In this document: positions 7,238 to 54,195 of the stretch, piece after piece
Layout of the letters: every line of letters begins with the position of its first letter
Position numbering within the stretch: position 1 is the stretch's first letter
DNA from: Methylomonas koyamae
GTDB taxonomy: Bacteria; Pseudomonadota; Gammaproteobacteria; Methylococcales; Methylomonadaceae
DNA: 64,000 nucleotides
Direction of reading: 5' to 3'
NCBI RefSeq assembly: GCF_006483455.1
Contig: NZ_PPPU01000018.1
Span: forward strand, 62,001-126,000
Notes under the pieces: generated by a model
The model's database searches: none
Told to the model about the DNA's origin: nothing
Seen by the model: only the letters and a program-made list of their open reading frames with translations
Position numbers and translations under genes: made by a program

Positions 7238-8119
7238 TTACTTAAGAGATTTCCAGCGGCCGGCGACATATTCCAGCGCTTCCTGGATGTTCAGGTCGCG
7301 GGTGCCACCGCCGGTACGGACGAAAAACTTAGGTGTATTGCCGATGCTGAGGAACACCGGCCGCAAGGCCGGCGAGACGATGACCCGACACACGTCTTTG
7401 TGGTCGATCTTGTGAAACAAGATATGCACAAAGCGACACAGGTCCGCTCCCAAATTCTCGGCGATCGCAGTGATCAGGGTTTGTTCGAAACCGTCCTGAT
7501 CGCATTTTTTCAAAGTCTGAAAGTCCGGTTCCAGACCGACGATCTCGCCGTTATCGGCGACTCCGATCAGTAACGTGCCGCCGATGTGGCTGTTGAAAAA
7601 TCCGGCCAGCGTTTTCAATACGACGCCTTCCAGAGTCCGATTCACGCGCTGCTCCTGCAAATCCCAGCGCAACGTCGATTTGAACTCCAGCAACGGCCCT
7701 TCGCCCTGGCGGATGATGGTCGGCAGGTCTTTTTCCAGCTCGGCTTTCAAGGCATCCAGGTCGACCAGGCGTTTATGCAGCATCTGGTAAAAGCCGAGCG
7801 ACAGCAAACCCAGGAGCGCGCCGATTTCAGCGTAGAACAGGATCAAATTATTCTGGTTGATCTGCCCAGTCATCACCTCGGTAAACTGGCCGATGACGAA
7901 TTCTATCGACGAAATCGGGTCGGCATTGCGTTCGCGCGAACTGATGTAATCGTAACTGGGCGCCAACAGAAAAATCCCCATCCCGGCGCCGATCCAGGCG
8001 GCCAGAAAATAGATTTTCAGTTTTTGTTTCCAGATGTTCAGGAGTAGCAGTAAGAAACGTTTCACGTCGGAATGGCGATTTCGAATGGGGGGTATGTTAG
8101 GGAAACAATAGCCGGCCAT
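7238..8119 (-). CDS. Membrane-anchored AlbA_2 (Schlafen AAA-4-like) domain protein
   Basis: Two transmembrane segments (about residues 38-55 and 95-113) precede a C-terminal AlbA_2/divergent AAA domain at about 135-285, recognisable by EGPLLEFKSTLRWD, the TLEGVVLKTLAGFFNS helix and GGTLLIGVADNGEIVGLE. Such domains occur in putative nucleic-acid-binding proteins; no enzymatic role is proven from this sequence. The ATG at 8119 overlaps the preceding gene by 23 bp; a GTG at 8065, giving VKRFLLLLLN, is an equally plausible start because the first 18 residues look unlike coding sequence. Confidence 0.7.
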   Translation of the reverse strand: MAGYCFPNIPPIRNRHSDVKRFLLLLLNIWKQKLKIYFLAAWIGAGMGIFLLAPSYDYISSRERNADPISSIEFVIGQFTEVMTGQINQNNLILFYAEIGALLGLLSLGFYQMLHKRLVDLDALKAELEKDLPTIIRQGEGPLLEFKSTLRWDLQEQRVNRTLEGVVLKTLAGFFNSHIGGTLLIGVADNGEIVGLEPDFQTLKKCDQDGFEQTLITAIAENLGADLCRFVHILFHKIDHKDVCRVIVSPALRPVFLSIGNTPKFFVRTGGGTRDLNIQEALEYVAGRWKSLK

Positions 8120-8600
8120 CTTCAGGAAAGCTGCGTTTGCCTAATTGTTCTGTGGTCAACCTTGGCCCCTGCCAAACGTAGGCTTGGGATGCGCCGGCCA
8201 CGCTGACCAACTCTGCAAAAGCGCGAATTTCGATTTGAGTCAAGCCGCCTTCCAGCATGGCTAAGGGATGCAGCACTACAAGGGGTTTGGCGACGAAGAA
8301 GCGCTTCGGTAAGGCTTGTTTAATCAAATAACGCAGGGTGCGTTCGGCGACGGCGAAATCCGCCAGCAGGGTGCGGGGATGGGCGAAGCCGTTTTCGATG
8401 CGGACATTGGGCCTACCGGCTAGCTGTTTTGCCATTGATCCCACTGCAACAATTGTATCTCGGCCCCCCTTGATCTCTAATGCCAGTAAGGGCGGTTCGG
8501 CCAGTTTAAGTCCGGTTTCGGCATGGGTGATTTCGATTAACTCGGGCGTTATAGCGATATAAAGCGTGTTGCGAAAATAGGCGAGCATTGAATCGTCCAA
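8097..8600 (-). CDS. MreB-like single-subdomain protein
   Basis: This 167-residue protein resembles only the first part of the bacterial actin MreB. AVGSMAKQLAGRPN (residues 52-65) matches the family's VAVG..AK.M.GR segment, LLADFAVAERTLRYLIKQ (78-95) matches the next helix, and GGLTQIEIRAFAELVSVAGA (118-137) matches the segment after the nucleotide pocket. The glycine/asparagine-rich phosphate-1 loop is replaced by AITPELIEI, and subdomains IB, IIA and IIB are absent. It is therefore unlikely to bind ATP or polymerise like MreB. Function unknown; possibly a partner of filaments. Confidence 0.65.
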   Translation of the reverse strand: MDDSMLAYFRNTLYIAITPELIEITHAETGLKLAEPPLLALEIKGGRDTIVAVGSMAKQLAGRPNVRIENGFAHPRTLLADFAVAERTLRYLIKQALPKRFFVAKPLVVLHPLAMLEGGLTQIEIRAFAELVSVAGASQAYVWQGPRLTTEQLGKRSFPEDGRLLFP

Positions 8601-17092: not shown

Positions 17093-17168
<76 letters not shown>

Positions 17169-17190
17169 CAGATTTTTTGGATAGGCCGTA

Positions 17191-17266
<76 letters not shown>

Positions 17267-39964: not shown

Positions 39965-42898
39965 ATGCATCGAAAAACGCCCCGGTTAACCATCGCACTA
40001 GCCTGTTACGGGCTGATCGCTTCGACGGCCAGCCGTGCCGACGTCAGCGCGGCCATGATTCGCGGCCAAGTGCTGTCCGGCGCTGGCATTAGCCCGGCCG
40101 GCGCTCAAATCATCGTCACCAGCTTGCAACGCGGTTTCTCGACCCGCACCTTTTCCCGCGATGACGGCTCCTATGTGCTGATGGCGTTAAAACCCGGCCG
40201 TTACCGGCTTTCGGTGCAGGCACCGGATGGACGGCAGACCTCACAGGAGTTGACCTTACAGGTCGGCCAGACCGCCTTACTCGACATTTCGCTCGATCCG
40301 GAAAGCGCAGCTGCCGCCGGCAATCCGGCCGAACAGAATTCGTCGGAACTGGCGACTTATCTGACGCCGGAGCAAATGCAGCGTTTGCCGCAAGTCAACC
40401 GCAATTTCCTGAATTACGCCGACCTGGCCCCCGGCGTCAATGTCGTCAACGGCGAGGACGGCGCCACCCGGTTGCAGAGCGGCGGACAGCGGCCGGACAG
40501 CGTCAACCTGTTCATCGACGGCGTCAGCCAGAAAAACTACGTGGTGCGAGGCGGCGTGGCCGGCCAGGATTCCAGTAAGGGCAACGTGTTTCCGGAATCG
40601 GCCGTGGCCGAATACAAGGTAATCAGTCAGAACTATAAAGCCGAGTTCGACCAAGTCGCCGCCGCAGCGGTCTCGGTTCAAACCAAATCCGGCGGCAATA
40701 GGTTTCAGGGAGAGGCCTTTTACGACCATACCAACCAGGATTTACGGGCCGCCACCCCCAGCGAACAGCTTACCGGCAAGCGCGATACCGAACAGGCGCA
40801 GTATGGCGTGACCTTGAGCGGACCTATCGTCAAGGACGTGGCGCATTACTTCATGGCTTACGAGCGCAAGGTCAACGACGATTTCGCCAACGTTGCCGCA
40901 GGGGACGGCGGCCCGGTTCCGGCCGCCTATCAGCCCTTGTTGGGCGAATTCAACCGGCCGTTCGAACAAGATCTGTTTTTCGGGAAATTGGATTGGGCGA
41001 TCGGTACCCGGCATTTGATCGAAGCCACATTCAAATTCCGCGACGAGACCGAGTCGTTGGGAATCGGCGGCATCAATACGCAGCCTTATGCGCTGGAAAA
41101 AGGCAACAGCGAGAAACGCCTGGATTTCAAATACCAGTACCGGGCCGAACATTGGGTCAACGAAGCCCGTTTTACCTACGAAGACGCCAATTGGCAGCAA
41201 ACGCCGGCGGAAAACTCGCCGGGCATAGTGCTGCAACGCTTAGACGGCAGCCTGCTGGCAAATACCTTGTCCAGCCGCGCCGTGCTGAATGCCGGCGGCT
41301 CCACCAACTATCAGCAGAAGGGCCAGATCGGACCAGGCTTGCAAGACGATTTGACCTTTAGCAACTTACACTGGTACGGCGACCACGTCGCCAAACTCGG
41401 CGTCAAACTGAAACAGATCGAACTCAGCGCGCTGGAACGCGATCCGTATCACCCGCAGTTCAGTTTTAACCTGAACAACCCGGCCGGCAATCCTTACCGG
41501 GTGCGCTGGGCGTCGGCGCTGGCCGGCGCCGGCGACGGCAGTACTGCCAGCGACGTTACCCAGTTCGGGGTTTATTTGCAGGACGACTGGCAGGTCGACA
41601 AGCATTTGAGTTTGAATTTGGGCCTGCGCTGGGACTACGAGTACAACCCGGGTTATCTGAATTTCGTGACGCCGGCCGACGTCGCCGGTGCGTTGCGCAA
41701 CTGGAGCAACATTGCGAAAGCCAACGCCGGTTACGACATCGAAAATTTCATCAGCAGCGGCGACAACCGCAGCGCGGACAGCAACAATTTCGCGCCGCGC
41801 CTGGGTTTTGCCTACGACTTGCTGGCCGACCAGCGCCACATTGTGTTCGGCGGCTTTGCCAGGGCCTACGACCGCAATATTTACGACGTTTTGCAACTGG
41901 AACAGACCAAAGGCACTTATCCCGGCTACAGCGTCAATTTTCTGGGCGACCCGAACTACGATTGCGCGGCGGCGGCGGACTGCATTCCCTGGAACCCTGC
42001 GTATCTGAATTACTCGCCGGCACAGTTGACGGCGCTGACCGGCGCCGTTCCGGGGACCAGCCGCGAAATCAATTTAGTCCGCAACAACCTGAAAACCCCG
42101 TTCTCCGACCAATTCAGCCTGGGCATGCGTAACCGGATCGGCGACTGGTTCGCCGAAATCGCGTTCTCGCACGTGGTCAGCTACAACGGTCTGGTCGGGC
42201 TGTTGGGCGGTCGCAATGCCGACGGCAGCTTTTTCGCGCCGGGATCGGCTTTCGGCGGCACTTTTCAGGCATTGCCGGGCTTCGGCCAAGTGATATTGTT
42301 CGATAACGGGGTGCAGACCAAAACCAATTCGATCTTTCTGAAAGCCGAAAAGCCCTACCGCAAGGACAGCGGCTGGGGCATGACCTTTGCCTATACCTTT
42401 ACCGATTCGGAAGAGAATAAACCGCAGTCCTTTGTCGACAACAGCAGTTATCTGTTCGAGTATCCCAATACCCACGGCATCGGCTGGCTGGACACTGCCG
42501 GGGTGCGCAAACATAAAATCGTCGCCAGCGGCAGTGTGGATTTGCCGTGGGATTTGATATTCTCCACCAAGTTAACCTTGGCCACCCCCGAGACCCGTTC
42601 CGGCATCAATTGCACCGGCGGCGGTTGCCGATTCGATACTTTCACGCCGCGCGGCGAGGACTTTATTTTTCCGGGCAATTGGTGGGGCTACCGCCAGGTC
42701 GATGTGGCGTTGATCAAAAGTTTCGATACCCCGCGCGACACCCGGATGAAGTTGCGACTGGACGTTTTGAATCTGTTCGATTTCAAAAACTATGCGGCGT
42801 TTAACTCGGATTTCGCTTCGGCCAATTTCGGCTCGCCGCTGGGTACCTTGGCCGGCCCCGGCTTAACGCTGAAACTGACTGCGCGGTTGGAGTTTTGA
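39965..42898 (+). CDS. TonB-dependent receptor with N-terminal carboxypeptidase-like domain
   Basis: A 977-residue outer-membrane protein. Residues 1-26 are a signal peptide, about 30-118 a carboxypeptidase-regulatory-like beta sandwich (IRGQVLSGAGISPAGAQI, DGSYVLMALKPGRYRLSV), then a plug (about 140-250) and a beta barrel ending in the C-terminal aromatic TARLEF. The Oar-like layout suggests uptake of, or signalling by, a peptide or glycan; the ligand is unknown. It sits within the signalling operon and its stop TGA overlaps the ATG of the YfiR-like gene. Confidence 0.9.
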   Translation: MHRKTPRLTIALACYGLIASTASRADVSAAMIRGQVLSGAGISPAGAQIIVTSLQRGFSTRTFSRDDGSYVLMALKPGRYRLSVQAPDGRQTSQELTLQVGQTALLDISLDPESAAAAGNPAEQNSSELATYLTPEQMQRLPQVNRNFLNYADLAPGVNVVNGEDGATRLQSGGQRPDSVNLFIDGVSQKNYVVRGGVAGQDSSKGNVFPESAVAEYKVISQNYKAEFDQVAAAAVSVQTKSGGNRFQGEAFYDHTNQDLRAATPSEQLTGKRDTEQAQYGVTLSGPIVKDVAHYFMAYERKVNDDFANVAAGDGGPVPAAYQPLLGEFNRPFEQDLFFGKLDWAIGTRHLIEATFKFRDETESLGIGGINTQPYALEKGNSEKRLDFKYQYRAEHWVNEARFTYEDANWQQTPAENSPGIVLQRLDGSLLANTLSSRAVLNAGGSTNYQQKGQIGPGLQDDLTFSNLHWYGDHVAKLGVKLKQIELSALERDPYHPQFSFNLNNPAGNPYRVRWASALAGAGDGSTASDVTQFGVYLQDDWQVDKHLSLNLGLRWDYEYNPGYLNFVTPADVAGALRNWSNIAKANAGYDIENFISSGDNRSADSNNFAPRLGFAYDLLADQRHIVFGGFARAYDRNIYDVLQLEQTKGTYPGYSVNFLGDPNYDCAAAADCIPWNPAYLNYSPAQLTALTGAVPGTSREINLVRNNLKTPFSDQFSLGMRNRIGDWFAEIAFSHVVSYNGLVGLLGGRNADGSFFAPGSAFGGTFQALPGFGQVILFDNGVQTKTNSIFLKAEKPYRKDSGWGMTFAYTFTDSEENKPQSFVDNSSYLFEYPNTHGIGWLDTAGVRKHKIVASGSVDLPWDLIFSTKLTLATPETRSGINCTGGGCRFDTFTPRGEDFIFPGNWWGYRQVDVALIKSFDTPRDTRMKLRLDVLNLFDFKNYAAFNSDFASANFGSPLGTLAGPGLTLKLTARLEF

Positions 42899-43434
42899 TG
42901 TCCGGTTTCGCTTCGATAACTGCGCGATACGGCAGCCGGGCGGCGCGAGTGTTGGGTTTGGCACTCGGCTTCGCCACCCTGACCGGCTTTGCCGACGAAT
43001 TGGCCGAGGTCCGGACCAAGGCAAATTACCTGTATAACTTCACCAAGTTTGTCGAGTGGCCGGCATCGGCCGGCGATGCGTTGCATATTTGCGTGGTCGG
43101 TTCGGAAGCGGTCGTCAATGTCTTGAGCGATTTGGCCAGCCGCGATACCAAAGGCCGCCTGCTGCAAATCTGGTCGGGAGTCGACGATCCGCACGTGTGC
43201 CAGATCTTGTACGTCGAGCGCACGGTTGCGGAATTGCCGGCACTGATGCGCGAGGTTGGCGGCAATCCGGTGTTGACGGTCAGCGATGCCGACGGTTTTG
43301 CGGAGCGAGGCGGTGCCATCGGTTTTTACCATGAGAACGGGCAAGTCAAGCTCAGCGTCAATCCGGATGCTGCCCAAAAAGCCCAATTGAAAATCAACGC
43401 TATGCTGATGGAAATAGCCCGTATTGTCCGCTGA
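42898..43434 (+). CDS. YfiR-family periplasmic protein
   Basis: A 178-residue secreted protein. A signal peptide occupies about residues 1-32, followed by the YfiR-like core: VRTKANYLYNFTKFVEWP, ICVVGSE, then GNPVLTVSDADGFAERGGAIGFYHENGQVKL, which I quote here only by its ends. Cysteines in LHICVVG and HVCQILY could form a redox-sensitive disulfide as in YfiR. YfiR of Pseudomonas represses the CHASE8-containing cyclase YfiN; here the next gene, 19 bp away, is a CHASE8-like histidine kinase. Confidence 0.88.
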   Translation: MSGFASITARYGSRAARVLGLALGFATLTGFADELAEVRTKANYLYNFTKFVEWPASAGDALHICVVGSEAVVNVLSDLASRDTKGRLLQIWSGVDDPHVCQILYVERTVAELPALMREVGGNPVLTVSDADGFAERGGAIGFYHENGQVKLSVNPDAAQKAQLKINAMLMEIARIVR

Positions 43435-43453
43435 TGAGCGCGAGAATCTTGCC

Positions 43454-46400
43454 ATGACCGATATCAAACGCGATATGAACATCAAGACCAAATTGGTGCT
43501 AATCATGTTGGCTACCAGTTGCGTGGCGTTAGTGCTGGCCGGAGCCGGCTTCATCGCTTACGAACATATCCGCGTCAAATCCGATATGGACCGCGATATA
43601 CAATCCCTGGCACGGATTGTCGCCAACCGCAGCACGGTGGCGCTGACTTTCAACGACAGCGCTGTCGCCTCCGGCACCCTGGCCGCGCTCAGCGTAAAAA
43701 GCAGCATTGTCTCCGCCTGCATTTACGATCAGAGCGATCATTTGTTTGCCGAATACCGTCGCGACGAGGCGTGCCCGCCGCTGTATCCGGGGCTGCTGGG
43801 CGACGACGGCGTCGTGGTATACGACCGCTACAGCAATGTCGGCGAAGACATCGTCTGGGACGGCCGGACGCTCGGTAAAGTCTGGATCAAAGCCAGCCTG
43901 GACGAACTGATCGGCTTGTGGCGCAAGTTTCTATTGGCGGCTGCGGCGATCATCGCTTTGTCGGCGACCATCGCCCTGATACTGGCGTCCCGCTTGCAAC
44001 GGGTGGTTTCGGAACCGTTGATGCGACTGAAAAAAACGGTCGAAACCATCAACAGCGAAAAAAACTATACGCTGCGTGCGGCGGTGGACAGCGACGACGA
44101 ATTCGGTGCCTTGAACCGCGCATTCAACACCATGATCGCCACCATCGAGGCGCGCGACCGGGAGCTACTGGCCGCCAACCGCCAGTTGGCCGACAACGAA
44201 AAACAACTGGCCGGTATCAACGAAGCGCTGGAAGAACGGGTCGCGGCGCGCACCGCCGAACTGGCCGACACCAACGCCAAATTGGCGCACAACAGCGTGA
44301 TGCTGGCCACGGTCCTGGACAGCATGTCGCAGGGACTGATCGCGTTCGATGCCGATCTGAAATTACTGGTATGGAATAGCAAACTCAGCGAAGTGCGCGG
44401 TTATCCGGCGGCGATGTTGCAGGCCGGGCGGGACTACGCCGAGTTTGTCCGCTTCGATTCGGCGGACGCAGCCTTGCGCTTCGAAAATCCCGACGGCGCC
44501 TTGGGCGAGTTTTTCCATGAGGTCAGGCACTTCCGGCCGCACCGCTTCACCGGTACCCGGCTGGACGGCCGGGTGATCGAAATTGCCGGCGGTCCGATAG
44601 CGGACGGCGGCTTTGTCAGTACCTACGAAGACGTCACCTTGCGAATCCAGGCAGAGGCCGCGTTGAAGGAGGCCCGCGACGCCGCCGAATCGGCGACTCA
44701 AACCAAAAGCCAGTTTCTGGCCAACATGTCGCACGAGATCCGCACCCCGATGAATGGCGTCCTGGGCATGCTGCATTTGGCGCTACAAACCGATTTGAAT
44801 GCGTCGCAACGCAATTATTTAGCCAAGGCGCATAGCTCGGCTCGGGCGCTGTTGGGCATTTTGAACGACATTCTGGACTTCTCGAAGATCGAGGCCGGCA
44901 AGATGGTGCTGGAATGTATCGAATTCCGCTTCGATAGTGTGGTGGAGCAACTGGCCGACATGATCGGTTATCAAGCCGGCCTGAAAGGCATCGAGTTTTT
45001 GATTCGGCACGACCCGCAAATCCCGCCGGTGCTGGTTGGCGACCCGTTGCGCTTTGGTCAGATTTTGACCAACCTCTGCGGCAATGCCCTGAAATTCACC
45101 GACGCCGGCGAATTGGAATTGGCGTTTTACTGTACGGCCAAGACCGAAGAAACCCTAGACTTGCGGATTTCGGTGCGCGATACCGGCATCGGCATGTCTG
45201 CCGCCGACAAAGACAAACTATTCAAGGAGTTTACCCAAGCCGACCAAGGCACCAGCCGCCGTTTTGGCGGCACCGGCCTGGGTTTGGCTATTTGCAAAAC
45301 CCTGGTGGAAATGATGCACGGCCGGATTTGGATCGAACATTCGGAGCCGGGCCGAGGCACCACCTTCTGTTTTACCGTGCGAATGGGCGTGGCCGGCGAA
45401 ACGCTGGCCCGCCAGCAGGCAATGGAACGCAGCATCGGTGCATTGTTGGCGGACGTCCGGGTCTTGGTCGTCGACGACAATGCCGCCTCCCGCGAAATCA
45501 TCTCCGACATGCTGCGGCCGTTTCATTTGCGGATCGATTGCGCCGCCAGCGCCGCTGCCGCGCTGAATCGGATCCATCAAGCCGGCGCCGAACCTTACGA
45601 CGTGGTATTGATGGACTGGAAAATGCCCGGCATGAACGGCGACGAAGCCATCCGCCGGATTCGGTCGGATACCGATTTGGCTCAGCAACCGAAAGTGATC
45701 ATGGTCACAGCCTACGGCAGCGAAGACGTGATGCATGCCGCCGGCCGCGCCGGTATCGACGGCTTTTTGGTCAAGCCGGTATCGCCGTCATCGCTGCTGG
45801 ACGCGATTTTATCGGCATTGGGCCGCGGCCGGGTGCAAGCCATGGCCGACAAGTTCAAACAGCTTGGAACCGGGGCCGCCGGCGATGCCCGTCAGTTGCA
45901 GGGCATTCGCCTGCTGTTGGTCGAAGACAACGAAATCAACCGCGAATTCGCCTCGGAATTGTTGCGCAGCCACGCCATGCAAGTCGATGAAGCGGTGAAC
46001 GGGGAAGAGGCGGTGATCATGGTGCAGCAGCAGAACTACGATGCGGTATTGATGGACATTCAGATGCCGGTGCTGGACGGCTTGCAGGCCAGCCGCCGAA
46101 TTCGGGATCTGGCGGAATTGACCGGAGACCGGCGTTACGCCAAAGTCCCTATCATTGCAATGACAGCCCATGCGATGGCGCGCGATGTGGAAAAAAGCTT
46201 GGAGGCCGGAATGAACGACCACATAACCAAACCGATCGACCCGGAGCGGCTGCTGTCTGCGCTGGCAACCTGGGTGGAGTTGCCGCAACGCGTCGCCGTC
46301 GGCAGCGAAATTCCGGCAGCGGAACTCCCGGCCGATTTGGCGGCCTTGGCGGCAGTAGACGCTGCCCAGGGCATACGCCGCATCGGCGGTAACGCCGACG

Positions 46401-46936
46401 CCTATCGTAAACAACTACATCGTTTTGCCGCGCACTATTCCGGTACGGTAGCCGAAATTCGCGGCCTGATCGACGCCGACCAATTGAAAGCCGCCGAAGA
46501 ACGTTGTCACGCCCTGAAAGGCGTCAGCGGCAATCTGGCCGCAGCGGCCTTGTTCGACGCGGCCGCCGAAATCGACAAGCAATTGAAACAACACCAGCGC
46601 CCAGACTTGGCAGAACTGCAACGCATGGAAACCTTGCTGGCCGATTTGCTGGCGGAAATTGCCAAGCTCGCGGCAACCGGCACTGCCGGCCCGGTGGCGG
46701 ACAGCTGCGCAGCCACACCGCCGGCCGATGTTGCTGCGGTATTGGAAAAGCTGGCGCACGCCTTGGAACACGATCTGGGCGCAGCGGAAGATTTGATGGA
46801 ACAACTACGCCGCAGCCTGACCGACAACCGCTACCGCGATGCGGTCGCCGAAATCGGCAATAAACTGGACCGATTCGCAATCGACGACGCCCAAATCCAA
46901 TTGGCCGAATTGCGCCTGCTGATAGGGCAGGGCTAG
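43454..46936 (+). CDS. Hybrid sensor histidine kinase with CHASE8-like sensor, two receivers and HPt
   Basis: An 1160-residue kinase from ATG 43454. Transmembrane helices at about 12-35 and 155-176 flank a periplasmic CHASE8-like sensor (IVANRSTVALTFND). A HAMP domain, coiled coil and PAS domain lead to HisKA with H427 in MSHEIRTPMNG and a HATPase (GTGLGLAICKTLVE). Receivers carry D721 and D868, and an HPt domain has H1019 in CHALKGVSGN. The full phosphorelay is in one chain. It should signal to the receivers at the start of the same operon. Confidence 0.93.
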   Translation: MTDIKRDMNIKTKLVLIMLATSCVALVLAGAGFIAYEHIRVKSDMDRDIQSLARIVANRSTVALTFNDSAVASGTLAALSVKSSIVSACIYDQSDHLFAEYRRDEACPPLYPGLLGDDGVVVYDRYSNVGEDIVWDGRTLGKVWIKASLDELIGLWRKFLLAAAAIIALSATIALILASRLQRVVSEPLMRLKKTVETINSEKNYTLRAAVDSDDEFGALNRAFNTMIATIEARDRELLAANRQLADNEKQLAGINEALEERVAARTAELADTNAKLAHNSVMLATVLDSMSQGLIAFDADLKLLVWNSKLSEVRGYPAAMLQAGRDYAEFVRFDSADAALRFENPDGALGEFFHEVRHFRPHRFTGTRLDGRVIEIAGGPIADGGFVSTYEDVTLRIQAEAALKEARDAAESATQTKSQFLANMSHEIRTPMNGVLGMLHLALQTDLNASQRNYLAKAHSSARALLGILNDILDFSKIEAGKMVLECIEFRFDSVVEQLADMIGYQAGLKGIEFLIRHDPQIPPVLVGDPLRFGQILTNLCGNALKFTDAGELELAFYCTAKTEETLDLRISVRDTGIGMSAADKDKLFKEFTQADQGTSRRFGGTGLGLAICKTLVEMMHGRIWIEHSEPGRGTTFCFTVRMGVAGETLARQQAMERSIGALLADVRVLVVDDNAASREIISDMLRPFHLRIDCAASAAAALNRIHQAGAEPYDVVLMDWKMPGMNGDEAIRRIRSDTDLAQQPKVIMVTAYGSEDVMHAAGRAGIDGFLVKPVSPSSLLDAILSALGRGRVQAMADKFKQLGTGAAGDARQLQGIRLLLVEDNEINREFASELLRSHAMQVDEAVNGEEAVIMVQQQNYDAVLMDIQMPVLDGLQASRRIRDLAELTGDRRYAKVPIIAMTAHAMARDVEKSLEAGMNDHITKPIDPERLLSALATWVELPQRVAVGSEIPAAELPADLAALAAVDAAQGIRRIGGNADAYRKQLHRFAAHYSGTVAEIRGLIDADQLKAAEERCHALKGVSGNLAAAALFDAAAEIDKQLKQHQRPDLAELQRMETLLADLLAEIAKLAATGTAGPVADSCAATPPADVAAVLEKLAHALEHDLGAAEDLMEQLRRSLTDNRYRDAVAEIGNKLDRFAIDDAQIQLAELRLLIGQG

Positions 46937-47025
46937 CCGTCTATTCCGCTGGGGTAGGCAAGATGAAACCGTGTCGCCGAAATCGCTAGCCCGCTTGCAG
47001 GTTTGCATCCCCTTTAAATCGAAAT

Positions 47026-47061
47026 GTTTCAATGAGGCCCCGGCGGGAGGCCGGGGAATGC
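47026..47061 (-). CRISPR. Single surviving CRISPR repeat (type I-G/I-U)
   Basis: A 36-bp element that on the minus strand starts GCATTCCCCGG, has a 7-bp GC palindrome (CCCCGGC/GCCGGGG on the plus strand) and ends CCTCATTGAAAC, the canonical 3' end (ATTGAAAC) of many repeats. It lies directly at the broken end of a cas4-cas1 gene, where the array should be. No second copy is present in the window, so this is an array remnant. Length, palindrome and 3' end support the call; proof needs comparison with intact relatives. Confidence 0.72.
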
Positions 47062-47976
47062 TGCCTGCCAACTGACCGGGATTTCGCGCTTCATCAAGTC
47101 CTGCAAACACGGCGTGGTGATGTAGACGTTGCCCATCACTACGACTTGGGAAACATCCACCAGCCGCGCGGTCTGGACTTTCTCGTCGTCGATGCTGATC
47201 TCCAGTTCCTCGCCTTTTTTGCCGATCTTGGCTTTGTAGGCCTGCACGTAAACCGGCAGCGCTTCGTCGCGCATCACCGCCAGCGGCCGGGGCTCCAAGT
47301 CGGCGTGGCGCAGGTAATTGACTTCGTCCGGCAAACAAATACCTACCAGCGAGCAACCGGAGCATTTCGGGCTGTCCCGCAGCGGATCGGGAATGTGGCC
47401 ACCGGCGGCGATCAGGCGCAGGCCGTTGATGGCGTTGGCGGTGAGTTGCTGCAGTTCGTCGTCGAACACCACCCGCACCCGTTCCCGGCTTTGCACGTAA
47501 TACAGCGCGCCTTCCTCGCAGACGTAGCCGTGTTCGCGCAACACCATGGCCTGCACGCAGAGTTGCACCCGCTCCGGGTCGTAAGCGCCGCGCGCCACAT
47601 GCGGACGCTTGCCGCGTTTGTAATCGATCGGTGTGACCACGCCGTCCTCGGCTTCGATCAAGTCCAGTTTGGCGATCAAACCCAAACGATTGGACGACAG
47701 CGTGATCGAACGACCGTGCAGTTTTTCGGTGTCGTCCAGTTCGTCGGCTTCCGGAAAACTTTTGGACGGCTTGTCCACCCGGCGGTGGGCATGGTCGCCT
47801 TCCACGGTGTCCGCCGACGCCGCCCACTCGCCCTGCACCCACTCCAGATAGGCCAAACGCGGGCAGTACTGGTATTCGTTGATCATCCGCGCTGGCAGCA
47901 ACGGCATGTCGCCGGACAATTCCGGGAAGGGCAGCGGTAGTTCCAGTTGGACAGGCGGGCGTTCGTTGTCAGTCAT
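47029..47976 (-). CDS. cas4-cas1: Cas4-Cas1 fusion truncated inside Cas1 (type I-G/I-U)
   Basis: A 315-residue product from ATG 47976. The Cas4 part is complete: C38 in YCPRLAYLEW, RecB-type nuclease residues D105, D118 and K120 (KLDLIEA, PIDYKRGKRP), and C205, C208 and C214 for the iron-sulfur cluster. From about residue 228 the Cas1 N-terminal domain begins (LPVYVQAYKAKIGKKGEEL, then QVVVMGNVYITTPCLQDLMK and REIPVSW). After W303 Cas1 stops: residues 306-315 (AFPGLPPGPH) and the stop are encoded by the CRISPR repeat. The Cas1 active site is missing. Cas4 could still be active; spacer acquisition cannot. Confidence 0.88.
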   Translation of the reverse strand: MTDNERPPVQLELPLPFPELSGDMPLLPARMINEYQYCPRLAYLEWVQGEWAASADTVEGDHAHRRVDKPSKSFPEADELDDTEKLHGRSITLSSNRLGLIAKLDLIEAEDGVVTPIDYKRGKRPHVARGAYDPERVQLCVQAMVLREHGYVCEEGALYYVQSRERVRVVFDDELQQLTANAINGLRLIAAGGHIPDPLRDSPKCSGCSLVGICLPDEVNYLRHADLEPRPLAVMRDEALPVYVQAYKAKIGKKGEELEISIDDEKVQTARLVDVSQVVVMGNVYITTPCLQDLMKREIPVSWQAAFPGLPPGPH

Positions 47977-47979
47977 TTT

Positions 47980-48010
47980 GTAATACAATTCGTCATCATC
48001 AACGTATTAC
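47980..48010 (+). promoter_or_regulatory. Candidate operator of the RHH/PemK module
   Basis: GTAATAC (47980-47986) and its complement GTATTAC (48004-48010) form an inverted repeat between the divergent cas4 and antitoxin starts, 12 bp before the antitoxin ATG. Autoregulation at such a site is usual for ribbon-helix-helix antitoxins; binding here is inferred. Confidence 0.4.
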
Positions 48011-48022
48011 CTGGAGTCCGCC

Positions 48023-48331
48023 ATGCCGGCCATCAGCCTGCGTTTACCCGACGATGTCGAAGCCAATCTCAAAGCCGAAGCCCAACTGGAAGGCAAAAGC
48101 CAATCGGAAATCGCCCGCTTGGCGATCACCGAATACCTGGCCCGCCGCGAGCGCGAGCGGTTTATGGCGGAAATGGTGGAAGCGGCACGCGCCTTGGCCA
48201 ACGATCCGCAAGCCAGGGCGGAAGCGCTGCAAATTGCCGCAGATTTCGACGCGGCGGACGATGGCCTGGACCGTTTGATTGCCGAAGAGCGCGCCGCCGG
48301 TATCGACCCCGACGAAAAATGGTGGGAATGA
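48023..48331 (+). CDS. Ribbon-helix-helix antitoxin
   Basis: A 102-residue CopG-like antitoxin. ISLRLPDDVEANLKAEAQLEGKSQSEIARLAITEYL (given here as two halves: the strand ISLRLPDD and the helices up to TEYLARR) forms the ribbon-helix-helix at residues 4-42, followed by an acidic, helical toxin-binding tail ending DEKWWE. CTGGAG upstream is the ribosome-binding site. It overlaps the PemK-type toxin gene by 4 bases (ATGA). The pair sits on the plus strand between two minus-strand cas remnants. Confidence 0.85.
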   Translation: MPAISLRLPDDVEANLKAEAQLEGKSQSEIARLAITEYLARRERERFMAEMVEAARALANDPQARAEALQIAADFDAADDGLDRLIAEERAAGIDPDEKWWE

Positions 48332-48672
48332 TGAGGCGCGGCGAAGTGTGGACCGCCAATCTGAATCCCGACAAGGGCGCCGAAATCGGCAAGATCAGGC
48401 CGGTGCTGGTGTTGCAGGACAACGCGATGATTACCGGCGGCCTGCCCACGATTGTGGTGGTGCCGTTGACCAGCCAGTTTCGGCCAAGCTTGGCGCCGCT
48501 ACGGATACCGATTGCACCGCAAGGCCGGCTGAAAGCCGCCAGTTACGTCATGGCCGAACAACTTCGAGCCATCGACCGTTCCCGCTTCGGCGAAGGCCCG
48601 CTCGCCACCGTCACCCCCGAGGAACTGGCGGCGGTGGAGAAGAGTTTGCGGGGGCTTATGGGGTTGTGGTGA
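48328..48672 (+). CDS. MazF/PemK-family toxin
   Basis: A 114-residue growth-inhibiting ribonuclease of the PemK/MazF fold. MRRGEVWTANLNPDKGAEIGKIRPVLVLQ starts with the conserved RRGEVW..L.P..G.E..K.RPVLV pattern, and the PLTSQ and SYVMAEQLRAIDRSR segments follow. The start is ATG 48328 or 48331, in either case overlapping the antitoxin stop. The stop codon is only 4 bp from that of the convergent csb2 remnant, which brackets the module's right-hand boundary. Confidence 0.88.
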   Translation: MMRRGEVWTANLNPDKGAEIGKIRPVLVLQDNAMITGGLPTIVVVPLTSQFRPSLAPLRIPIAPQGRLKAASYVMAEQLRAIDRSRFGEGPLATVTPEELAAVEKSLRGLMGLW

Positions 48673-48676
48673 GCTT

Positions 48677-49300
48677 TTATCCATCTGTATCTACTGGAGC
48701 AAACAAGCCCAAACCAAAATGACAGCCAAAGCCCAATGCCAGCGGGCCGGTAAGTGGTTCGGCGAACGTCAGTTGCCAGAACGAGCCTCGGGTATCCGGC
48801 TGCACTAGGCCTCTTTTGCTTCTAAAGCGGTGAAAGTCGATCGGGCGTAGCTCGCGGCCGTGCGGCTTGATGGTCGGGATGGGCAGAATTTCTATCGGTT
48901 CCGGTAATTTGCGCTCCCGACATTCCCGCCGAATCTGTGCCGGTACGTCAAAGTCTTTTTTGCAATGCCACGGATGTAGATACGGCGTTTGCGACTGCCA
49001 AACACTGGCGGTCCGGACGATAGGCGAGACGTTTTCGAAGTCGTTGCGCTGGCCGATATGCTCCAACATCAAGCGCCATTCCTGGCCGTCAAAGCCTTTG
49101 ACCGTTTTTAACGTTCCCACGACCCGGCGTATGTCGTCGTCGATACCGGCCGGGACGTGAATCAGCACATGATCGAGCAATCCGTCCGGATTGGCTTGCG
49201 GCAAGTAAACTTCGCCCACAACGATACCGCCAAAATTATATGGATGAGGCTGGATAAATTTAAAGGGAGTTAATCTCGAAATCTGCCGTTCAAATTTCAA
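48677..49300 (-). pseudogene. csb2: C-terminal remnant of Csb2 (type I-G/I-U Cas5/Cas6 protein)
   Basis: A 207-codon open frame from a TTG, with an in-frame stop 7 bp upstream, matches only the C-terminal part of Csb2: RLTPFKFIQPHPY, VWQSQTPYLHPWH, DVPAQIRRECRERKLPEP, DFHRFRSKRGL and the RAMP glycine-rich loop GPLALGFGCHFGLGLF. Intact Csb2 proteins are roughly twice as long, so the N-terminal half is gone. Csb2 is the fused Cas5/Cas6 subunit that processes crRNA and caps the Cascade. The order csb2 then cas4-cas1 then repeat matches an intact type I-G operon. Confidence 0.78.
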
Positions 49301-49400
49301 AATTTTTTAGCAATTGACAGACAAGATCGGCCACTTTGCGACATTCAAAAATTGAATTGTATTGCGGCGATAGCACCTAAAGCGGTCTTTTAATTAATGA

Positions 49401-49418
49401 TTATCCCGACAGGGATAA
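49401..49418 (-). other. Inverted repeat downstream of the STAND ATPase gene
   Basis: TTATCCC-GACA-GGGATAA lies in the 213-bp AT-rich gap between the ATPase stop and the csb2 remnant. On the minus strand it is followed by a mixed AT stretch, not a clean T-run, so it is at best a weak terminator. The rest of the gap holds nothing I can recognise. Confidence 0.3.
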
Positions 49419-49513
49419 CACACTTTTCACATGATAAGCCTCGTCGCACCATTTTTTTACCATATAAATTAAACATCAAGAAAGTTATCCGGTGCGTTCC
49501 CTACCTGGAGCTT

Positions 49514-52066
49514 CTAAATGCCTGGAAAATCTCGTTCAATTACCCGCAAAAGTCCCCATTGCCCGATTTTTTTGATACGGTGTCTGGCTTTTTGCAGGTA
49601 ATAATCCGGCGTTTGAGAATATAGATTTGGGTTAGTGCTCCGATAAGCCTCGCCGCATTGTCTGCGCAGTTGCGCGGCAAATAAATCTAATTCCGCATCG
49701 CGCAGGTGATAGCCGGTTTCTTGAGTTATGTTTATGGCTTCTTCGTAGTGGTTTAAAGCGGTATCAACATCTTGTATGGCAAGGCTGTAACGTCCGTGTA
49801 TTAATAAATAATCTACTTGATATAGTTTCATGCCGCAGCGTTCTATGACTTCCCACGCGCTGTTTAAATCGGTCGCTGCGTTTTTGAGTTGGTTTTGGGT
49901 AAGATAGAAGTCGGCACGCGAGCAATAAAACTCAGGCATGAAAATAATCAATTTTGTTTTTTGTATAGTTTCTATAGCTAAATCGAATTCTGCACTAGAT
50001 TTTTGGGATTTTTGCAATGCTTGGTAAGTTTTGGCAAGAATAAGGTGAAAAATAGCAATATCATTTGAATCACTATTTTGTTTCGCAATTTTTAATCCAA
50101 ATATCCCTCTTTCCAATATTTTCTTTAGAGCGACTGGATCTGACGCTGTATCTAACAAATAGGAACAATAGTCTTTTCCGCCTAGTGAAGTTGTCCACGG
50201 ATAGTCATCAAATTCTTCTCGCCACAAACGCTCTGTTTTTTCAAAATAATGTTGTGCTTGATGCAAATTGCCTGAACGGTGCAACACTGTTGCTAAACGT
50301 CCGAAACTACCTAGTTTTCTAGCTGTATCGTTTGCGCGGTTAGAAAAATCTATGGCCAATCGTACCGAATTTTTAGCATCACTGAGCTTTCCTAAGGACA
50401 ATAATAGGTCTGTATAATTTTCAGAAGAATTAGCTGCCATTCCCCAATCTTCTAATTCGTTATGTAAGTTTATATCTAATTGTCGCAACTTAGCAGATTC
50501 TTCAAATCGCCCTAAACACATAAAACAAAACGAAGCAATTGAAAATAGTCCTGCTTGCACATTTTTAGGCATATCATTGTCATAGGGCTGTAACCAGTCT
50601 GGTGAAAAAAAGGCAGATAATCCTATTAAATCTTGGCTATATGCTCCTAGTTTTTTCGAGCTATAATATTCACCACCACGCCAAATACGTTCTAAAAAGA
50701 TTTTTTGTACGACGTTGCCATATTCTCCCGCCAAACATCCATGCACTACCGCCCGATATAAAGGCAACATTTCTTCCAGCGTATCAGGAAATTCTTTTTC
50801 AGGCAGTTTTTGATAAAAATCAAACAAAACAAAATGTGCCTGTTTAAAACTTTCAGGAGTGTCGCTTTTAAATTTCTCAATAAAATAGGCACGAATAATC
50901 GGATGCGTATCCCATTCCATATGCCCAAAACAGCCTTTTTTACCCAATAACACACCGTTGTTTTCCAATCGCTGTTCCAGCCTTTTCCATCCGGCATCGG
51001 TCAAAGCGCGTAACGGCGCGGCGTGGTCGGCTTTCGCAAGCAATTCCCTTTTTTCATCTGCATTCATCGGACGGTCGCATAAACCCAACAACTGCAAAAA
51101 ACAACGCGAGGCGGCGTCCTGCAAACTGTCGTAATAATCCAAGACCCGCAGCGCATGTCGGCTGTCTTTTTCCGCATCACTATATCCATGCGCCGAAGTC
51201 AACGGCGGCAATTCCTTAGCATAACGCGGGTCGCCTGCATGATGCTCCAACAACAAATGCCCCATTAACACCAAACTCAAGGCATGACCGTTTAACTCTT
51301 GGCTAATTGCCTGCCGTTCGGTTTCATTACCCTGAACGCCTAATTTGGCTAACAGTTTCGCGCCGTCGCAATGCGGCAACGTCGCTAACGGCAAACTCAA
51401 AAAATGTTCATCCTGCCACTTTTTCAATTCCACCAACGGCTGACGCGATGACAACAACACAAAACTCTGCCCCGCTGCCCGCCGAAATTGCAGAATAAAC
51501 TCCTTTAGCGCGCTGTCTTGCAATTCGCCATTCATGCTGGGTAGATTTTCGGCATATTGCAATGGCTCTAAACCATCGAGTATCAGCAAACACGGCTGTT
51601 TTTGACATTCCCGCGCCAACAACCGCGCCTTTTCAATATCATCTTTTGGAATCTCGTTAATGCCTAAAAACGGCAACACCGCACTAAAAAACGGCTGCGA
51701 GTTGGTAAAAGTATTATGCGAACCTTGCGAATAAAACGACCAGCCAAACACTCGGGTTTTGCCGTAATAATGGTGTTCAGCGATGTGTTGTAACCATTCA
51801 TCGGTTAAAGCGGATTTACCAATGCCGCCCGCCGCGACAATAATTGCCAAGCGGGTTTTGCCGTCTGTAAATCGTTTGGTTAGATCGGCGAGCTCTTTTG
51901 TGCGGCCGATTAAGGCTGTGGTGGGTTGAGGCAAATGATGGATATTGACTATAACTTCTATGTCTCTCTGCTCTTGTTCAGAATAATAAACAACAACTTG
52001 AGTATAGATATCACCGCCCGCCTGGACATTTTGCATTGAAACAGCCGCACCAAAAGATGCCTCCAT
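49514..52066 (-). CDS. STAND (NB-ARC/NACHT-like) ATPase with C-terminal TPR-like repeats
   Basis: An 850-residue signal-transduction ATPase. A short N-terminal segment (1-45, with NVQAGGDIYTQVVV) precedes the NTPase: Walker A AGGIGKSA at 79-86, Walker B LLILDG at 160-165, a VLLSSRQ sensor near 212 and a winged-helix-like region to about 400. Residues about 480-840 are helical repeats of TPR type (for example AIQDVDTALNHYEEAINIT). Such proteins sense phage or other invaders and oligomerise. No effector enzyme is fused, so the 151-residue protein encoded 11 bp upstream may supply it. Codon use is more AT-rich than its neighbours. Confidence 0.8.
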   Translation of the reverse strand: MEASFGAAVSMQNVQAGGDIYTQVVVYYSEQEQRDIEVIVNIHHLPQPTTALIGRTKELADLTKRFTDGKTRLAIIVAAGGIGKSALTDEWLQHIAEHHYYGKTRVFGWSFYSQGSHNTFTNSQPFFSAVLPFLGINEIPKDDIEKARLLARECQKQPCLLILDGLEPLQYAENLPSMNGELQDSALKEFILQFRRAAGQSFVLLSSRQPLVELKKWQDEHFLSLPLATLPHCDGAKLLAKLGVQGNETERQAISQELNGHALSLVLMGHLLLEHHAGDPRYAKELPPLTSAHGYSDAEKDSRHALRVLDYYDSLQDAASRCFLQLLGLCDRPMNADEKRELLAKADHAAPLRALTDAGWKRLEQRLENNGVLLGKKGCFGHMEWDTHPIIRAYFIEKFKSDTPESFKQAHFVLFDFYQKLPEKEFPDTLEEMLPLYRAVVHGCLAGEYGNVVQKIFLERIWRGGEYYSSKKLGAYSQDLIGLSAFFSPDWLQPYDNDMPKNVQAGLFSIASFCFMCLGRFEESAKLRQLDINLHNELEDWGMAANSSENYTDLLLSLGKLSDAKNSVRLAIDFSNRANDTARKLGSFGRLATVLHRSGNLHQAQHYFEKTERLWREEFDDYPWTTSLGGKDYCSYLLDTASDPVALKKILERGIFGLKIAKQNSDSNDIAIFHLILAKTYQALQKSQKSSAEFDLAIETIQKTKLIIFMPEFYCSRADFYLTQNQLKNAATDLNSAWEVIERCGMKLYQVDYLLIHGRYSLAIQDVDTALNHYEEAINITQETGYHLRDAELDLFAAQLRRQCGEAYRSTNPNLYSQTPDYYLQKARHRIKKIGQWGLLRVIERDFPGI

Positions 52067-52077
52067 CAGCGCGGCAT

Positions 52078-52533
52078 CTATTTTTTTCCCGAGGCTTCAA
52101 CTTTTACTCTGCTGATTTCAATATCGCCGCTGAACTCACTGCCTTTTGCATGAACTCCTGCGGCTTGCTTGCCACTGACTATAATCTCCTGCAAACGCAC
52201 ATTAGCGGCTTTTACATTTTCCAGCTTAATACCAATTGCTTGCGCCACTTGCGGTGGCTGTTCTGCAATTGCATTCAATAACGCTTGCGCTTGTTGCAAT
52301 AACTCATTATCTTCTGCCGCCTTCGCTTCTACCAGGTCCTCGCGCAAAGAGGCTTGTTTAGCTTCGGATTCGGGCTTTTTCTCCACCGCCTCCAGTGAGA
52401 CACCGCCGTATTTACGCTGAATAATCGTTTTGAGTCCATTGTAAAGATCGCCGATTACTTTTTCAGTCGTAGGCTTTGCCGAGGCAACGGCCCCGGAAAT
52501 AATTGCGGCCATAATTGCGCTTAAAGCATCCAT
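52078..52533 (-). CDS. Small protein paired with the STAND ATPase
   Basis: A 151-residue protein of unknown function. The N-terminal 25 residues (MDALSAIMAAIISGAVASA) are hydrophobic and small-residue-rich and could insert in a membrane; a helix KPTTEKVIGDLYNGLKTIIQ follows. The middle is charged and helical and the C-terminus (HAKGSEFSGDIEISRVKVEA) looks like short beta strands, resembling the NVQAGGDIYTQVVV segment at the start of the ATPase. This shared motif and the 11-bp spacing suggest the two proteins work together. I do not recognise the family. Confidence 0.65.
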   Translation of the reverse strand: MDALSAIMAAIISGAVASAKPTTEKVIGDLYNGLKTIIQRKYGGVSLEAVEKKPESEAKQASLREDLVEAKAAEDNELLQQAQALLNAIAEQPPQVAQAIGIKLENVKAANVRLQEIIVSGKQAAGVHAKGSEFSGDIEISRVKVEASGKK

Positions 52534-52959
52534 TGTTTGTACCTATTTGAGTCAATTTGATTCTATGTGTAATGTAATTGTTTATAGCCTGTCAATTAGC
52601 GTTGAAATTTTTCCACTTTTAGCGAAAAAAGTTCATTTTTTTTCATGTAAATCTCAAGCAACTGTTTTTTAAAATAATGTTATGAATTTACCAGTACGCT
52701 GAATACTGGAAAGTGCTAGACGCCGTTTCACACATAGTGATTTAAGATCTACGATGATTTACATCCACATAGAACAAATCAGATCGATTAAGGAAGCCCG
52801 AAGTCCTTTAGATTTTTAGTTAGTGAATTCGAATGATCGAAATACAACCTTCAACCGACACATAATGTTACGAATAAACTGACTGGTTTGGGTCGTTACC
52901 GACAGTTTTTTCATGAAGAATTTAAACATCTTGGATGTCGGCTTTCAAGATAGCCATGG
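52534..52959. other. AT-rich intergenic region
   Basis: This stretch of about 425 bp between the small STAND-partner gene and higA has no convincing coding frame. It is markedly AT-rich compared with the flanking backbone, consistent with acquired DNA. Apart from the candidate promoter at its left end I see no repeat, tRNA or integrase trace. Confidence 0.55.
52566..52595 (-). promoter_or_regulatory. Candidate promoter of the STAND operon
   Basis: A perfect TTGACA at 52595-52590 (minus strand) is followed after 18 bp by TACACA, about 33 bp before the small gene's ATG at 52533. The -35 is consensus, the -10 weak. Confidence 0.4.
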
Positions 52960-53202
52960 TTAAGTGCGCATGTCGTATTCGCTTTGCAGGTTTAGCCAGA
53001 ACCGTGGTTCCATGCCGAAAAACAAACCCAGCCTGAGGGCGGTATCGGCAGTGATCGGGCGTTTGCCATTGACCAATTCGCTGATTCGACTGGGGGGAAC
53101 GTCAATATCCGGGGCGAGCTGACGGGCGGAGATGCCCATCGGCTTCATAAAATCCTCCAGCAAGATTTCGCCAGGGTGTATTTCATCAAGTAGTTCAATC
53201 AT
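52960..53202 (-). CDS. higA: HigA-family antitoxin
   Basis: An 80-residue antitoxin beginning IHPGEILLEDFMKPMGIS with the HigA signature, followed by a helix-turn-helix (SARQLAPDIDVPPSRISELVNGKRPI) and the DTALRLGLFFGMEPRFWLNLQ tail. It neutralises the HigB-type toxin encoded just upstream on the same strand, the usual toxin-first order. The frame is intact. Confidence 0.92.
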   Translation of the reverse strand: MIELLDEIHPGEILLEDFMKPMGISARQLAPDIDVPPSRISELVNGKRPITADTALRLGLFFGMEPRFWLNLQSEYDMRT

Positions 53203-53233
53203 GTTTTACCTAGTGATAGTCCACAATTTCGAC

Positions 53234-53488
53234 CTAGTAGGCACCATCTTCTCGCCATGCAAAGCGAATCCGCCATTGTTCGTTGATACGGATGCTGTAT
53301 TGCCCACTGCGATCGCTTTTTAAAGATTCGAGCCGGTTTCCGGGTGGAATGCGTAAGCTGGCCAAGTCGGTAGCGGCATGCAGCTGCAAAAGCTTGCGCC
53401 GAGCGACGCGCTCAATGTTTTTAAATTGCAGTACCAACTCGCTATTGAAAAGCGCTTGGGTATCGGAGCAAGCAAACGAATGAATCAT
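53234..53488 (-). CDS. higB: HigB/RelE-family toxin shortened by an in-frame amber codon
   Basis: An 84-residue product from ATG 53488: MIHSFACSDTQALFN, RLESLKSDRSGQYSIRINEQW and RIRFAWREDGAY are HigB-type. The frame ends at TAG (53234-53236). Beyond it the same frame continues VEIVDYH and a second TAG at 53210-53212, exactly the conserved C-terminus of the family (normally D then VEIVDYH). Restored, the protein would be 92 residues, the usual length. The toxin is therefore probably weakened or dead unless the amber codon is read through. Its ATG overlaps the end of the truncated WYL regulator by 4 bases. Confidence 0.85.
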   Translation of the reverse strand: MIHSFACSDTQALFNSELVLQFKNIERVARRKLLQLHAATDLASLRIPPGNRLESLKSDRSGQYSIRINEQWRIRFAWREDGAY

Positions 53489-53961
53489 AGCCGTTGTTGT
53501 GCGAACAGGGCCTGGACCAAGGTCAGAAACAAGTCGTCGTTGCGGCTGCGGTAGGCCTGGCTGAGGATTTTGATGCGGCCCAGTTGCGGGGTTTTGATGC
53601 CCGGCGAGTGGTCCAGCAGTTTCTCCAGGTGGCTGCGGAGTTGGCCGATTTCGTTGCGGAGCAAGCCCGGCGCCAGATTGCCCAGCAGATGCTGGCAGGC
53701 GACCAGGGCTTGCAGTTCCTCGGCGCTGAGCCAGATGCCGGGCAATTCGAACGGGTGGCGCGGGTCGTCGCGGTCGTAGTAATAGCCGATGCCGCGTTCG
53801 CAGAGCAGCGGCGCGTTCAAGCGATCGCGCAGTTCGTCTACCAGGCGGTGGCGGGTGGCTTTCGAGCAAGCCAGTAGTCTTTCTATTTCCGGCCCCGAAA
53901 TCGGCGTGCGCCGGTTTTTCAGTAGGTTGTGGAGTTTGATGAGTTTGTCGAGGTGTTGCAT
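53485..53961 (-). pseudogene. WYL-family regulator lacking its WYL domain
   Basis: The 158-residue product matches the N-terminal half of WYL-domain transcriptional regulators: helix-turn-helix at about 1-60 (LDKLIKLHNLLKNRRTPIS, KATRHRLVDELRDRLNAP), then GYYYDRDDPRHPFELPGIWLSAEELQAL in pieces, and the PQLGRIKILSQAYR linker. It stops at ALFAQQRL, just where the ligand-binding WYL domain should begin, and the higB start codon overlaps that end. WYL regulators often accompany CRISPR-Cas loci, so this may be the old locus regulator, cut by the incoming HigBA module. Confidence 0.75.
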
Positions 53962-54195
53962 CTGAGCGTCTTCCCTGAGCGAGTGAAAGTTCTAGCGTCT
54001 TAACTGTCGGGGAAAATTAGCCGATTCCGGGTTGTTTTGCCAGTAGCGGACGCTTGGGCCGGCGGCGCCGGTCGATTTTCGCCTGGTCCGGTCCGCCGGC
54101 CCCGTTGCACTGTGGGAGGGATGCAATTTAATTTACCTGCCGCGCGGCAATATCTTACAATTCGCCAGCCCTTGGCTCTGACAATAACTATTTTT

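Follow-up and report, generated by a model that had tools for sequence, protein, structure and literature searches.

Known systems and the present locus

Degraded CRISPR-Cas loci have been described in Escherichia and Salmonella (PMC2886076). They belong to subtypes other than the one considered here, and the passages of that paper used here describe neither a cas frame fused into a terminal repeat nor a toxin-antitoxin centre. In the type I-G locus of Thioalkalivibrio sulfidiphilus, five genes lie between Csb2 and Cas4-1, and two toxin-antitoxin systems are among them (PMC9638904). This is the same slot as that of the pair described below; in the excerpts relevant here the genes are mentioned in passing for one intact locus, with no survey and no decayed loci. 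CreTA modules are RNA toxin-antitoxin pairs that guard CRISPR-Cas (PMC9458426, PMC10097628). As far as the accessible parts of these two papers go, the likeness is that a toxin-antitoxin is tied to CRISPR-Cas and that inactivation is costly, whereas the CreTA pair is RNA with an antitoxin acting through the CRISPR effector, and the present pair is a protein pair of type II whose tie to the effector is hypothetical. The hypothesis that immunity is coupled to toxin-driven dormancy predicts toxin-like genes in or near cas operons (PMC3506569). In the portions of the article bearing on this point, most such toxins are placed at type III loci, and MazF, PemK and type I-U are not mentioned; the locus studied here is of type I-G. 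A broader account of toxin-antitoxin pairs in the type I-G slot was not found in the literature searched, which covered few subscription papers.

The loss of CRISPR-Cas is common and its exact steps are seldom visible. The stretch of DNA analysed here, called the window, comprises 64,000 nucleotides of the Methylomonas koyamae contig NZ_PPPU01000018.1. It very probably (about 0.92) contains a dead type I-G CRISPR-Cas locus, in which a deletion brought codon 304 of cas1 up against the final array repeat and a second change took away the effector genes but for the end of csb2 (Table 1). The joint can be read base by base against an intact locus of the same species, and a second lineage has a like joint at a terminal-type repeat. 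The window is a clean case of CRISPR decay, and the wider interest is in the toxin-antitoxin pair at its centre: the recurrence of such a pair in dead loci makes the idea that toxins guard immunity testable for protein pairs, in a less studied CRISPR subtype. The bolder reading, which is unproven, is that the way in which type I-G loci decay is shaped by protein toxin-antitoxin pairs.

Table 1. Features of the decayed locus and its flanks (window coordinates).
Feature	Position	Strand	Evidence or remark
Histidine kinase flanking the array end	43424..46936	+	Collinear with G007 (99%)
Former array trailer	46937..47025	.	Collinear with the flank past the last repeat of G007
Last CRISPR repeat of the array (leader-distal), which closes the cas4-cas1 frame at its 3' end (AFPGLPPGPH, stop, then AAC)	47026..47061	-	AAAC end, shared trailer
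Junction insert, 4 bp, GGCA on the coding strand	47062..47065	-	From neither cas1 nor the repeat
cas4 and the beginning of cas1 (303 codons, then two bases of codon 304)	47066..47976	-	98% identity to G007 residues 1-305; Pfam Cas_Cas4, Cas_Cas1 N-terminus
Intergenic region of 46 bp from which cas4 and the antitoxin gene diverge	47977..48022	.	Inverted repeat GTAATAC-N17-GTATTAC; identical in G007
Ribbon-helix-helix (RHH) antitoxin, frame intact	48023..48331	+	Pfam RHH_1 2.3e-05; NCBIfam RelB-like below its cut-off
PemK/MazF-like toxin, 114 aa, frame intact	48328..48672	+	Pfam PemK_toxin 1.7e-24
csb2 3' stump, about 172 codons, type I-G	48692..49209	-	TIGR02165 / Cas56g; 86% DNA identity to the G004 module, 7673-8190
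AT-richer segment replacing 5' csb2, the remaining effector genes and half a regulator gene	49210..53478	.	43% GC against 58-59% in the flanks
AAA/TPR protein, 850 aa	49514..52066	-	Pfam; in the AT-richer segment
Protein without Pfam match, 151 aa	52078..52533	-	In the AT-richer segment
HTH protein	52960..53202	-	Pfam; in the AT-richer segment
Truncated HTH_11 regulator, residues 1-168 of 333	53479..53991	-	Pfam; the whole gene borders the G007 locus

The deletion between cas1 and the last repeat

The intact locus is carried by G007, a genome of the same species. Its order is histidine kinase, trailer, 55 repeats (3,964 bp), leader, cas2 (98 aa), cas4-cas1 (574 aa) and an RHH-PemK pair, followed by csb2, csb1, two further cas frames (one of them helicase-like), a regulator and then another gene, which we take to be peroxidase-like. 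Window positions 41216-47061 align to G007 629001-634847 (97.9%), up to the last base of the final G007 repeat, and positions 47066-48673 align to G007 640101-641708, where the match resumes inside cas1. The 5,253 bp of G007 between the two aligned blocks hold the array, its leader, cas2 and the part of cas1 that the window lacks. Since the window is collinear with G007 on both sides of the joint, the deletion took out about 5.25 kb, in terms of G007, from codon 304 of cas1 to where the last spacer ends. A first-pass annotation of the sequence had proposed a deletion from cas1 to a downstream repeat with loss of the rest of cas1, cas2, leader and spacers, and the 5,253-bp gap bears this out; alignment to intact type I-G Cas4-Cas1, the check that it had suggested, puts the break at residue 303/304, where it had been placed.

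The lost part of Cas1, csb1, cas2, the other lost DNA and further repeats were found nowhere else in the 99.97% complete assembly, which has a single Cas4-Cas1 match and no match to the C-terminal part of Cas1 or to the csb1 of G007. The whole-genome DNA searches with the G007-type and G004-type loci scored 8 of 75 and 8 of 67 first-look candidates in this genome, respectively, so a weak copy of the lost parts elsewhere in the assembly could have gone unseen.

The 36-bp repeat that closes the frame, GCATTCCCCGGCCTCCCGCCGGGGCCTCATTGAAAC (minus strand), has a single copy in the window and a single match in the whole 4.54-Mb assembly when up to 3 mismatches are allowed; shuffled versions of the window gave none. 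The same repeat had been expected in related arrays, and the slightly degenerate pattern (up to 3 mismatches) indeed has 55 matches in G007, 116 in G002, 29 in G016, 6 in G004 and 36 in G036. It is absent from every genome outside the genus (201 genomes searched). The last of the 55 repeats of G007 ends in AAAC and the other 54 end in AAGC. The window repeat is the terminal one, because it shares the AAAC end with the last repeat of G007 only and because the trailer is common to both; it has the length of the array repeats, the trailer end and the array-end changes of a terminal repeat.

The chimeric cas4-cas1 frame (47029-47976, minus strand) is open, and Cas1 homology stops after W303. In profile searches it matches the Cas4g/Cas1g model NF049935 over model positions 1-279 of 546, with 387.8 bits, a score for the N-terminal half only and under the curated whole-protein cut-off of 560. 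Pfam finds a complete Cas_Cas4 and the first 62 of the 283 columns of Cas_Cas1. These matches agree with the first-pass description of a normal Cas4 and Cas1 N-terminal domain upstream of W303, and also with the predicted new open frame in which a complete Cas4 domain is followed by a Cas1-derived and repeat-encoded tail. Two details of that description need a small correction. The last ten codons and the stop had been said to coincide exactly with the repeat, which does supply ten codons and the TGA (33 bp), but the final AAC of the repeat lies beyond the stop. The break had been placed at residue 303; two bases of codon 304 and the 4-bp insert lie between W303 and the repeat. The inserted GGCA duplicates the GGCA immediately before it and differs from the end of the last spacer in G007; it would stem either from the last spacer, otherwise lost, or from a filler copy made during repair.

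A naturally short Cas4-Cas1 family is rejected, as the 11 intact homologues of the genus are open frames of 574-584 codons. Natural homologues ending at the break point, the outcome that would have spoken against a deletion, were looked for, and there was none among these 11 or among the best 80 of 210 named homologous stretches; all 80 of these loci match to query residue 571-574, and any short homologue with a lower score would fall below that cut. In G052 (L187:7240-9042), an otherwise intact Cas4-Cas1 of 600 aa has about 26 extra residues near 365-390.

The effector side

Of the two events, the deletion shown by the comparison with G007 put codon 304 of cas1 next to the 5' edge of the last repeat. 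The leader and all spacers went with it, as did the whole of cas2 and the greater part of cas1. The second change, shown by what now lies beyond the pair, left only the end of csb2 of the effector genes, with other DNA following it. The csb2 stump, still an open frame, is nearest to the G004-type module and not to that of the conspecific G007. The 4.3-kb segment next to it has no match to the G007, G016, G002 or G004 loci, and synteny with G007 returns in the middle of the regulator gene, which is presumably of the WYL type. Of a functional type I-G locus, only the partial cas4-cas1, the csb2 stump and one repeat were found. The 850-aa AAA/TPR protein, for which PADLOC gave no match at E 0.001, and the 151-aa protein (together 49514-52533, minus strand) occupy the former effector site and are possibly a replacement defence pair.

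The toxin-antitoxin pair and the slot that it occupies

An intact RHH-PemK pair is located between the csb2 stump and cas4. Both Pfam matches are above their cut-offs and the two adjacent intact genes overlap, as predicted for a type II RHH-PemK system; the antitoxin is 98-99% identical in G002, G019 and G036. Both arms of the inverted repeat in the 46-bp region are also found in G002, and G003 is without exact arms. As a candidate operator, the inverted repeat might let the antitoxin regulate the genes on either side of it.

All 11 intact loci of the genus have RHH-PemK in the slot between the effector genes and cas4-cas1 (the alignment of intact proteins was made without G002). Effector modules of three broad kinds occur around the pair in shuffled combinations with two or more toxin alleles; modules of the third kind are as little as 29-43% identical to one another. 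At loci L040-L045 and L095-L101, three type I-G effector modules lie beside one toxin-antitoxin/cas4-cas1 border, with toxin alleles shuffled independently, and the regulator border is also common where the sequence extends that far. In G011 and G021 the pair is found without an adjoining cas gene, and more distant copies are present in G008, G033 and G035. Because it also occurs without adjacent cas genes, the pair is a module in its own right.

Of the best 80 of the 210 named loci, 14 have an RHH or PemK homologue upstream of cas4-cas1, which in one locus is a fragment. The other 66 have no RHH/PemK-type gene upstream (four of them have less than 1 kb of upstream DNA), and many are without a recognised pair. 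HepT-MntA pairs are present in the slot of L108, L138 and L180 and HipA-like genes in that of L167 and L170, as judged by eye and from pooled family counts. For a count of families, 147 ORFs were called in the slot; with 34 cas homologues removed, 102 of the 113 left were scanned. The 11 passed over were for the most part ORFs that overlap others or are very short, a locus present in duplicate, and toxin-antitoxin genes from Methylomonas. As the control, 102 length-matched ORFs were taken from 241 in the flanks. Toxin families account for 29/102 slot ORFs (PIN 13, PemK 9, HepT 3, HipA 2, ParE 2) and for 6/102 control ORFs (PIN 6, the others 0), counts which are lower bounds drawn from the 25 of 51 slot families and 25 of 89 control families listed. 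Toxin families are thus commoner in the slot by a Fisher test that treats the loci as independent of kinship (2.5e-5; p = 0.0024 with five more hidden control toxins). The control ORFs also hold antitoxin families (BrnA 2, FitA-like RHH 2, MazE 2).

Other decayed loci

Truncated cas4 genes were sought in four sets of genomes. In the 37 genomes of the genus, cas remnants in non-intact genomes were found only beside the pair (window, G001 and G013), in a DNA search that scored at most 8 candidates per genome. The queries were the G007-type locus, without the first part of cas3 and without the array, and the G004-type locus; they represent two of the three kinds of effector module, the third being the G002 type. 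Of the other matches in the genus, some came from an insertion sequence within the G004 query and the rest, all shorter than 120 bp, were to Cas1 genes of other types, to a dispersed repeat or to chance-like pieces. The 311 genomes of the order gave no further truncated gene of this kind among the matches listed, and at least 11 genomes besides G013 have weak matches (E about 1e-27 to 1e-20) at places outside those listed. Three more truncated genes (G350, G518 and G454) came from 369 genomes of the class and 398 of the phylum. L184 (G518, contig C262) and L186 (G632) were rejected as cases of decay, their short frames being open to the contig ends. The match G611:C338 is at a contig end by its coordinates, and that of G763 covers residues 77-303 only, in a 627-codon frame.

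In G013, cas4 homology ends at about codon 52 and is followed by 7 bp and then a degenerate repeat, whose score was equalled by 1 of 2660 local windows (its own place) and by 0 of 2000 shuffles. This repeat also looks terminal, since its changed CCCCGTC block is shared with the degenerate repeat-like sequence past the last full repeats of G019, G024 and G025. The joint of cas4 to a repeat in G013 is a second case, independent of the window. About 0.3 kb of sequence interrupts the PemK gene of G013 (L093:10353-10677) some 14 codons from its start; the antitoxin frame is intact. A repeat at the end of the G001 cas4 was ruled out, as the sequence past its joint was equalled by 434 of 2660 local windows, and none was seen at the joints of G350 and G518 when the sequence was read by eye. 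A cas4 stump ending in a repeat is thus present at 2 of 5 decayed loci. G350 retains the last 50 residues of csb2 and residues 9-65 of cas4, together with an RHH-PIN pair; G518 retains a Phd-PIN pair (Phd 26.6 bits against a Pfam cut-off of 29.8) followed by cas4 past codon 122. A toxin-antitoxin pair therefore lies in the slot at five of the six truncated cas4 genes inspected (PemK in the window, G001 and G013). The sixth, in G454 (L185:5355-5804), has cas4 codon 126 fused in frame to cas2 codon 31, with all of cas1 deleted. It has no pair in the slot and retains csb2, csb1, csx17 and part of cas3 in the sequence covered, as well as repeats (a 24-mer in 24 copies).

Does the pair guard the locus?

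If losing both genes of the pair poisoned the cell, surviving deletions would halt on either side of it, and the pair would be left at the centre of a shrinking locus. This would add to the deletion account and not replace it. The presence of RHH-PemK at every intact locus of the genus, the recurrence of a toxin-antitoxin pair at five of the six truncated genes (even though the toxin of G013 is interrupted), the confinement of genus remnants to the neighbourhood of RHH-PemK, short matches and the insertion sequence aside, and the excess of toxin families in the slot all point this way; if the three genus remnants were placed at random, all would include the pair with a product probability of 6e-4 (with approximate G004 coordinates). 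Against it, the remnants were located through the start of cas4, which adjoins the slot, so that proximity alone predicts much of the pattern. G454 lost cas1 with no pair in the slot and kept effectors and array, 66 of the 80 related loci have no RHH/PemK-type gene upstream, and L106 (Candidatus Methylobacter oryzae) keeps a whole cas4-cas1 beside an antitoxin match of just 21 residues. Antitoxin families occur among the control genes too, and in G011 and G021 the pair, found away from cas genes, may persist as a selfish or useful module. Protection of the locus by the pair is a tentative proposal, with the odds somewhat against it, because of the proximity bias, G454, the many loci without a recognised pair and the basis in sequence. 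The general form of the proposal is a shade more doubtful still. It would hold that exchangeable protein pairs (PemK, VapC, HepT, HipA and others) in a favoured slot of type I-G loci are addiction guards that put a cost on losing the entire locus, that dead loci therefore shrink around the pair from either end, and that the antitoxin may control cas4-cas1 through the shared operator.

Age and fate of the chimera

In codons 1-303, 12 synonymous changes and no amino-acid change fall on the window branch, against 10 and 3 on the branch of G007; the counts cover the 25 of 38 differing codons that could be polarised and not the other 13. An unconstrained tenth of the window branch gives P = 0.04 for the absence of amino-acid changes. 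Neutral drift over more than about 10% of the branch is therefore unlikely. The break would then be recent, or else constraint still acts on the Cas4 part; the substitution data would fit both.

The chimera might accordingly be a retained, working solo Cas4, a nuclease domain with a short tail that serves DNA repair or defence. Its Cas4 part is whole and retains cysteines 38, 205, 208 and 214 and the D-x12-D-x-K region, which we take to be Cas4 nuclease features; it has only silent changes on its branch, and the divergent promoter region is identical to that of G007. The csb2 stump is equally open, however, so an open frame only speaks for recent events. The form is absent from the 11 genus homologues and from the best 80 of 210, and the cas4 remnants of G001, G013 and G350 are much shorter than the nuclease domain and are broken by a frameshift or stop. 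A working solo Cas4 is thus improbable, and the chimera is most likely a young scar. Spacer acquisition by the remnant should be impossible, adaptation being lost with cas2 and most of Cas1.

Origin of the joint

The joint was most likely made by illegitimate end joining or by slippage at the palindromic repeat, as may be inferred from the lack of long homology between the deletion ends and the 4 extra bases between them. That the repeat supplies an in-frame stop would be incidental; the resulting frame encodes a Cas4 that carries 62 residues of Cas1 and, after them, 10 residues read from the repeat. The Cas1-Cas2 integrase acts at repeat edges, and a failed integration that joined the broken end of cas1 to a repeat boundary would also make such a deletion; at each of the two independent joints a terminal-type repeat has its 5' edge close by, 4 bp away in the window and 7 bp away in G013. 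The integrase works at the leader end of the array and not at its far end, whereas the window repeat is leader-distal, and exact integration leaves no extra bases. There are two cases only, and the joints of G001, G350 and G518 show no repeat, which makes a failed integration very unlikely. Least credible of all is a collapsed array wrongly joined to cas1 in assembly: arrays do assemble poorly and the joint was read in one draft assembly of 89 contigs, but the contig around the joint is 200 kb long, the sequences joined are not two repeats, and no other contig was found to carry the unique cas genes that are missing.

Elsewhere in the window, two adjacent tRNA matches with equal scores are found 25 bp apart (17093-17263, plus strand).
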